Both the position numbers and the translations under genes were made by a program. Source: a virus. From it: a stretch of 26,800 nt of DNA. The first letter of the stretch is position 1. Each line of letters begins with the position of its first letter. The notes under the pieces are model-generated. The model saw nothing but the letters and a program-made list of their open reading frames with translations, ran no database searches and was not told the origin of the DNA. The DNA lies in the IMG/VR virus record IMGVR_UViG_3300036846_001057, positions 1 through 26,800 of that record. One strand, 5' to 3'. This document shows, one piece after another, positions 21,840-23,444 of this stretch.

Positions 21840-22681
21840 TCCCGGTCCCCGGTTTCGTCCAGGGCACCCCGTACGGAGCACGCGGGTCGTACTGGTCGTG
21901 CAACTCCGACGCCCACGGCAACGGCATCCACACCGGCGTCGACTATCCGGCCCCGACCGGAACGAAGGCGGTCGCCGCCCGGGACGGCACCGTCAACTTC
22001 GTCAACTGCGGGTCGGCGTTCGGGAACCACCAGATCGAGGTTCTCGCCGGGGACGGCACCAGCGACTTCTACGCCCATCTGCGCAGCAGTGTCGCGGACG
22101 GCACGAAGGTGAAGGCCGGGGACAAGGTCGGCGAGGTCGGTGCCGAAGGCAACGTCACCGGTCCGCACCTGCACTTCGAGCGGCACTCCTACACCGGATC
22201 GGGCTGGTCGTGTTCGATGCCGGTCAACCCCGCCCCGAGCGTGAACTACCAGCCCACCCCGCCACCCCCACCGGAGGACCCCATGCCCGACTACATCCGT
22301 GGCACCACCACCAAGGCCGTGAAGTTGGAGGCCGACAAGTGGTACCCGATCGCCTGGGACGACGCCTCGAACGGGTCGTCCTACTTCAACCTGGGCGAGC
22401 CGGGGATCAGCGTGAAGGGTCCCTACTCGGCGACCGTGTCGGTCGACGTGTCCGGTCGTGACAGCGGGAACGTGCAGGTCCAGTTCGTCGAGATCAAGGA
22501 CGGAAAGCAGGTGGAGTCCAACCAGATCGACTCGCTCGGTCCGGTCGACCACGGCAGGTCCGCACAGATCGGCAACGTGGCAGACGAGAGTGGCCGCACC
22601 CTGCGCGCCCGGGTTCGAGCCACCAACGGCGGGTCCCTCGACCGCGCCGAGATCACCCTGCTTGCCTTTCGGCCCAAGTGA
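21836..22681 (+). CDS. Endolysin-type M23 metallopeptidase with C-terminal beta domain
   Basis: 281 residues. The N-terminal ~130 residues are a lysostaphin-type M23 peptidase: His32-x3-Asp36 (GIHTGVDY), His81 (YAHL) and the His111-Leu-His113 motif supply the zinc and catalytic ligands. It would cut peptide cross-links of peptidoglycan. There is no signal peptide, consistent with holin-dependent release. A Pro-rich linker (about 138-149) leads to a C-terminal beta domain from Met150 (MPDYIRGTTTKAVKLEADKW) that may bind the wall. GGAGG lies before that Met codon, so the beta domain may also be made alone. The stop follows CGG CCC AAG, and an EEP domain continues in the +1 frame. Confidence 0.85.
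   Translation: MIPVPGFVQGTPYGARGSYWSCNSDAHGNGIHTGVDYPAPTGTKAVAARDGTVNFVNCGSAFGNHQIEVLAGDGTSDFYAHLRSSVADGTKVKAGDKVGEVGAEGNVTGPHLHFERHSYTGSGWSCSMPVNPAPSVNYQPTPPPPPEDPMPDYIRGTTTKAVKLEADKWYPIAWDDASNGSSYFNLGEPGISVKGPYSATVSVDVSGRDSGNVQVQFVEIKDGKQVESNQIDSLGPVDHGRSAQIGNVADESGRTLRARVRATNGGSLDRAEITLLAFRPK
22283..22681 (+). CDS. Possible internal product: C-terminal domain of the M23 protein
   Basis: In-frame ATG 22283 lies seven bases after GGAGG (22272-22276 region), exactly at the junction between the Pro-rich linker and the C-terminal beta domain. Several endolysins make an extra cell-wall-binding subunit by internal initiation at such a place. The 132-residue product would start MPDYIRGTTTKAVKL. 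Initiation here is inferred from the ribosome site and domain boundary alone. Confidence 0.4.
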   Translation: MPDYIRGTTTKAVKLEADKWYPIAWDDASNGSSYFNLGEPGISVKGPYSATVSVDVSGRDSGNVQVQFVEIKDGKQVESNQIDSLGPVDHGRSAQIGNVADESGRTLRARVRATNGGSLDRAEITLLAFRPK

Positions 22682-22739
22682 CGACGAACCCAGCGGCGGT
22701 GGCAGCGTCAGCGAAGGGTTCAGCCTGCAGCACAACTCG

Positions 22740-23444
22740 ATGCAGTTCTCCGACTCCCCGGACGCCTGGCGTAAGGAGTGCCCGAAGGTCTTTGACCACG
22801 CCCGTTCGGCGGGGAACGTGGTGGTCACCGGCACCGAGGCCAGCGACTCCGGCAACGCCAGCATCCTCGGGGCTGCCGCCGACGACGCCGGGTTCTGGAA
22901 GTTCATCCACGCCGACGGCGAGTGGGTGGCGGTCGACAAGAGTGTGGCGTCGGTCAACGACCACGGCTACATCCCGGTGATCCCCGGACAGTCGGGCAGC
23001 GCCTCCTCCGGTGGGCACTCTCCGCGCGGCATCGTGTGGGTCACGTTCACCTTCAAGTCGGGCGGGCCGAAGGTGTCGGTCGGGGTCTGCCACTTCCTGA
23101 CCCAGCAGTCGATGGACGCCCAGGGGGCCACCAACAAGCCGCTGCAGGATGCGGCACTGAACTTCTGCGCCGACAAAGGGAGCGGCGGGAACCTGGCGTT
23201 CATCAACGGCGACGTGAACATGAACGACGAGACCAAGAACGTGTGGGGCACCTCCAAGATCGTCACCTGCTGGGACGAGTTGAGGAAGTGGCCCGCCACC
23301 CACGAGGGGTCTCCGGGCACCATCGACGTGATCAGTCGCTACGACCCGGACGGCGGGACGTTCACGAAGGGGGCGGTCATCGGCGACGACACCGTGAACC
23401 TGGCGACCGACCATCGGCTCATTCAGGCCACTAGGGTGCCTTGA
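22740..23444 (+). CDS. Endonuclease/exonuclease/phosphatase (EEP)-like domain
   Basis: 234 residues from the first in-frame ATG. Motifs: GTEAS (Glu33), CHFL (His118), GDVNMND (Asp158, Asn160), GTIDVISRYDPDG, and a final TDHRLIQA (Asp224, His225), the expected metal-binding and catalytic set of the EEP superfamily (DNase I, exonuclease III, phosphodiesterases). The substrate is unknown. Homology seems to start before the ATG: FSLQHNSMQ looks like the first EEP strand with its Asn. No start codon or ribosome site exists upstream in this frame, but the frame is open back into the M23 gene and reads a GGGS-type linker. The C-terminal end overlaps the convergent fibre gene by 14 bp. Confidence 0.7.
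   Translation: MQFSDSPDAWRKECPKVFDHARSAGNVVVTGTEASDSGNASILGAAADDAGFWKFIHADGEWVAVDKSVASVNDHGYIPVIPGQSGSASSGGHSPRGIVWVTFTFKSGGPKVSVGVCHFLTQQSMDAQGATNKPLQDAALNFCADKGSGGNLAFINGDVNMNDETKNVWGTSKIVTCWDELRKWPATHEGSPGTIDVISRYDPDGGTFTKGAVIGDDTVNLATDHRLIQATRVP

Follow-up and report, generated by a model that had tools for sequence, protein, structure and literature searches.

The influenza A virus PA-X shift (UCC_UUU_CGU) employs the same UUU_C +1 slip that we propose here for a phage endolysin gene, where the corresponding sequences are GCC_UUU_CGG in the phage under study and UCC_UUU_CGA in its nearest relative, L009. UUU_C is the proven slip site of PA-X, and UUC is the better partner for the same tRNA (PMC3498833). 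PA-X is, however, made by an animal RNA virus, and the rare A-site codon CGU is thought to help there, whereas CGG is common in our phage; moreover, the phage slip, unlike that of PA-X, is a prediction from sequence. In bacteria, +1 slippage in the P-site is described for prfB (CUU_UGA), which has a stop codon in the A-site and an upstream Shine-Dalgarno stimulator, neither of which is seen at the phage UUU. In the prfB context, CUU is reported to be the most slippery codon, followed by CCC and UUU (PMC10885494). The Listeria phages PSA, A118 and A500 (CCC_UGA and ACA_CCC_UCC) likewise shift +1 near the 3' end of a gene to give a C-terminally extended second product, but there the genes encode capsid and tail proteins, the CCC lies beside a stop codon or a pseudoknot and the extension is not an enzyme, whereas the gene studied here encodes a lysin and its extension would be an enzyme.

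Single endolysin genes that give two proteins are also described, namely Ms6 LysA, CTP1L and LysIME-EF1. These use internal starts and their products share a C-terminus, whereas in our phage the N-terminus would be shared and an enzyme domain added. PMC10885494 cites a two-gene Lactococcus phage lysin (Shearman 1994) as a frameshift case. Our literature search turned up neither an endolysin-EEP fusion nor a comparable +1 shift. To our knowledge, phage frameshifts are known mainly from tail and capsid genes.

The DNA analysed, referred to here as the window, comprises 26,800 bases and makes up an entire IMG/VR record. We consider it probable, from the sequence, that its endolysin gene yields both an endolysin and an endolysin-EEP protein through a programmed +1 ribosomal frameshift that lies close to the end of the gene and is conserved. 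If true, such a frameshift would extend the known cases to a new class of gene, the lysins, supply a likely bacterial UUU_C site and provide a natural fusion of lysin and EEP whose amount is set relative to that of the plain lysin.

The lysis cassette and the zero-frame endolysin

The majority of the genes in the window lie on the minus strand. A short group of plus-strand genes at 21.5–23.4 kb, flanked by a major-capsid-like gene (19730–21364) and a tail-fibre-like gene (23431–24588), contains an M23 endolysin with a C-terminal β-strand domain, followed by a +1 frame that is open to 23444. All features of this group are on the plus strand. An ORF of 32 residues (21601–21699), which has one hydrophobic segment, MGNNTFQWITDILLFLILLALLIPLTRRPPRV, and no PHROG match, is a possible holin as judged from its sequence. 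Directly upstream of the cassette, at 21438–21451, lies TCCTGTCCACAGGA, a palindrome that occurs ten times in the window. The palindrome, TCCTGTNNACAGGA, is found at 118, 2029, 3616, 7099, 11710, 15832, 17364, 17812, 21438 and 24603, mostly in intergenic positions, with 20 strand matches at one mismatch in the window compared to 0.8 expected, and is probably a phage operator or promoter element. On the minus strand, two overlapping ORFs (15196–15815), the second in the −1 frame, precede the tape measure gene; they resemble a pair of tail assembly chaperones (G and G-T) in which no slip site is obvious.

The endolysin ORF (21836–22681) encodes 281 residues that end in ...LLAFRPK and closes with TGA at 22679–22681. 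Residues 31–117 (21926–22186) match the Peptidase M23 domain (Pfam PF01551, E 1.2e-21), scoring 77 bits against a cut-off of 28.7, and the HxxxD and HxH motifs are present as HTGVD and HLH. By sequence, the product is a Peptidase M23 endolysin with predicted lytic activity. The β-strand domain that follows (22283–22678, MPDY...FRPK) is common to L009 (54% identity) and L002 (24%). We modelled the lysin and EEP halves apart, not as a fused protein. In the M23-β model, which is of low confidence (mean pLDDT 58), the last predicted strand of the β domain stops at the shift site, and by this poor model the zero-frame endolysin is predicted to be complete by itself.

The frame junction and its counterpart in L009

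The M23 frame ends with CGG CCC AAG TGA at 22670–22681, and a second frame, +1 relative to it, runs from 22416 to 23444 and is open across the lysin stop, just as the original prediction described. Beyond the junction the +1 frame encodes SDDEPSGGGSVSEG-FSLQHNSMQ. The first part of this is a Ser/Asp/Gly linker, PSDDEPSGGGSVSEG (22674–22718), which is predicted to be disordered, as are the initial ten residues of the EEP model that belong to it, and the start of which is kept in L009 (PSDDDPSGG). The second part had been read as the first EEP strand, and FSLQHNS does form the first strand in the structure model. Codon log-odds in the window are in favour of frame 0 until the lysin ends, after which, beginning at the stop, they are in favour of the +1 frame. 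The segment between the stop and the next Met (22682–22739) scores +7.7 in the +1 frame and −15.8 and −6.0 in the other two frames; as a yardstick, off-frame 20-codon windows of known genes in the window have a 99th percentile of at most 1.3. L009 shows this change of coding frame at the stop as well. Together, the coding score of this segment and the recurrence of the arrangement in L009 argue that the +1 arrangement is not due to chance; the downstream frame is coding and open, and would be entered from the upstream lysin gene.

L009 comes from a separate metagenome and is the nearest to the window among 13 loci, to which we widened the EEP family by way of L002, L007 and L008. Its EEP domain is about 45% identical to that of the window, and the 4-fold synonymous sites of the two β domains are saturated, being 29% identical, which is the chance level. 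The window junction reads CTT GCC TTT CGG CCC AAG TGA (CGACGAACCCAGCGGCGG) and that of L009 CTG TCC TTT CGA CCC AAG TGA (CGACGACCCCAGCGGTGG); common to both is CCTTTCGRCCCAAGTGACGACGAMCCCAGCGG, with the pattern TTT CGR CCC AAG TGA, and both have the same +1 relation and the same linker, SDDxPSGG. Conservation extends to 28 of 30 junction nucleotides, but other conserved protein motifs reach similar identity, which weakens any argument from the junction for a signal at the nucleotide level. A scan for the junction pattern matched L009 and L022 alone, the latter unrelated and by chance. Conservation of the site across divergent relatives is thus seen in two phages only, the window and L009, which counts against a frameshift, as does the finding that other relatives (L002, L005, L017 and L026) make EEP separately.

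The N-terminus of the L009 lysin differs from the M23 domain of the window and is CHAP-like (PF05257, 20.8 bits, below the cut-off). In this lysin, 2541–2618 translates as MVYDAQQTARNAEADQVNDPG*VRYCLQQCR; the stop is an in-frame TGA at 2604, just ahead of the likely catalytic Cys. The TGA could be a sequence error, a broken gene or another recoding, and because of it the L009 copy could be damaged or misread. The EEP frame of L009 opens at 3310, just after a stop, and has no ATG, GTG or TTG ahead of the domain, so ordinary initiation of this EEP is unlikely. The same junction, +1 frame and linker in L009 make an assembly error, a pseudogene or ordinary initiation unlikely, and a +1 frameshift that fuses lysin to EEP, as first suggested, is the best explanation of the locus.

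We infer that slippage occurs, at a rate that would leave the fusion as the minor product. The majority of ribosomes would probably terminate at TGA 22679 to give the M23-β endolysin. A fraction would slip +1, most likely with tRNA-Phe on the UUU at 22667–22669 moving from UUU to UUC, or otherwise at CCC_A six bases on. The slipped ribosomes would then read the Ser/Asp/Gly linker and the EEP domain, producing an M23-β-EEP protein of roughly 535 residues.

Position of the proposed slip and alternative readings

Within the limits set by L009 (3310 to the stop), inspection of the codons shows that TTT_C and CCC_A alone allow P-site re-pairing in +1, and both are present in both phages. The original prediction had placed the slip at CCC_A (22673–22676; CCC to CCA, tRNA-Pro). 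A slip there is possible and the site is conserved in L009, but TTT_C (22667–22670; UUU to UUC, tRNA-Phe) is the better supported by the sequences and is the site we favour. TTT accounts for 5 of the 223 Phe codons in the window (2.2%) and for one of 41 in L009, the latter being the junction itself. CCC, by comparison, is a common Pro codon in both genomes (26% in the window and 45% in L009), so its conservation is weak evidence. The codon after CCC is AAG, the preferred Lys codon (91%), and no A-site pause is therefore expected at CCC_A. CCC does have precedent in the Listeria phages, where it is used for +1 shifts at CCC_UGA and ACA_CCC_(UCC_GAA) (PMC5009743). On balance, a genuine frameshift located at CCC_A instead of UUU_C appears rather unlikely. 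The predicted junction peptides differ between the sites, being ...LLAFGPSDDEPSGG if UUU_C is used and ...LLAFRPSDDEPSGG if CCC_A is used.

The A-site codon after UUU in the window is CGG, its commonest Arg codon, so no hungry codon is evident there; CGA stands at 6–8% in both genomes. We found no stimulatory RNA structure shared by the window and L009, as the downstream folds are no stronger than shuffles in either. A hairpin spanning the junction has a z of −2.5 in L009 and is absent from the window (z +1.7). An Rfam search gave no match, and no Shine-Dalgarno stimulator element was seen by eye. Transcriptional slippage was rejected, the longest runs at the junction being three bases.

Without any frameshift, the EEP could instead be a separate protein whose translation starts internally or by coupling, with TTG 22662, ATG 22740 or a non-standard codon as the start. 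Separate EEP genes in relatives do have overlapping starts and stops, in L002 (ATGA), L005 (TGATG), and L017 and L019 (GTGA), and TTG 22662 is in frame in the window. The earlier claim that no start with a ribosome site precedes ATG 22740 needs a correction: GTG 22458, GTG 22590 and TTG 22662 exist in this frame, all within the lysin ORF. Separate initiation has no good ribosome site. TTG 22662 has just a weak GAGA upstream and, in an EEP frame of L009 that is devoid of ordinary starts, no counterpart. Initiation at ATG 22740 would delete the first strand, because FSLQHNS is encoded upstream of it, at 22719–22739, and no homologue begins at the equivalent of this Met; those of L002, L005, L017 and L026 start before the first strand. 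A start at the GTGA overlap at 22678, as in relatives, was rejected because its frame is not that of EEP and its codon score is poor. We therefore regard separate initiation as improbable. An assembly error of one base, or a true frameshift mutation that severed EEP in a decaying gene, is very improbable: the contig is metagenomic and was seen once, and most relatives have EEP in ordinary frames, but in L009, from another sample, the frame is broken in the same way with the same bases on either side, both phages have kept the catalytic residues of EEP and its coding signal, and no corrected sequence joining the frames was found.

The EEP domain in phage lysis cassettes

The domain that a +1 frameshift would append to the lysin lies at 22719–23444, with its stop at 23442–23444. 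An AF2 model of the product, built from 13 sequences, has a pLDDT of 90.4, and in the PDB it is matched best by TDP2 and further EEP enzymes. Against TDP2 the model gave a Foldseek E of 4e-13 and a VIA Z of 25.2, with an rmsd of 2.7 for 222 aligned residues. By this model, the +1 product is predicted to have the EEP four-layer α/β sandwich fold. The EEP metal and catalytic residues (Glu, Asp-x-Asn and Asp-His) are present, with GTE, D180/N182, D246/H247, H140 and D218 invariant in the 13 members; where EEP enzymes have an Asn on the first strand, most members have Ser or Pro. The window EEP thus has the fold and most metal-site residues in common with known EEP-fold enzymes (TDP2, Bacteroides BT3783, bacterial sphingomyelinases and nocturnin), but its identity to them is 10–18%, this member of the phage lysis-cassette family lies outside Pfam coverage and the first-strand Asn is replaced in the family. 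The window domain has no Pfam match, PF03372 included. Membership of the EEP fold superfamily does not depend on a Pfam match, which is a matter of convenience.

In several relatives EEP is encoded by a gene of its own. It overlaps the M23 lysin gene in L002, while in L017 the order is M23, a small membrane protein and then EEP with its overlap. A membrane protein also precedes the separate EEP in L019, as do an amidase-like lysin and a membrane protein in L026, and L007 carries a separate EEP of the same family. A more distant EEP protein follows an M23 gene in L004/L005, and the L005 lysis-cassette EEP is above the PF03372 cut-off. Single-frame fusions, which the original prediction had proposed looking for among relatives, were found in L008 and L016. 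That of L008 joins EEP to a peptidase-like N-terminus with no Pfam, PHROG or PDB sequence match, which may be M15-like, as read from HSKGGAFD; in L016 the EEP lies behind a PEPKPEPKP linker on a contig cut at its start. The separate and single-frame relatives indicate that the EEP domain belongs to lysis cassettes and has been fused to lysins more than once. We sought further EEP relatives in phage, plasmid and genome contig collections and found none, and this EEP family of phage lysis cassettes seems to be unnamed so far.

That EEP recurs beside, or joined to, M23, CHAP-like, amidase and M15-like lysins suggests an unnamed lysis-stage enzyme, perhaps one that removes nucleic acid or breaks some other bond of the envelope. 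Its role would most likely be that of a metal-dependent phosphodiesterase which the lysin part brings into the cell as lysis opens it. The chances that its predicted target at that stage is nucleic acid are about even, an envelope phosphodiester being less probable. For the locus as a whole, we lean slightly towards a reading in which a UUU_CGR +1 shift gives two endolysin forms, one bearing an EEP phosphodiesterase, and in which phage lysis cassettes repeatedly include EEP, so far unrecognised as a part of them, which has become linked to unrelated lysins along different routes, namely overlap, single-frame fusion and frameshift.

The L005 EEP (5615–6355), beside an M23 lysin, opens with a signal-peptide-like segment, MRRCLEATLLALALSVGVPAATG, which suggests that this EEP may be exported on its own.
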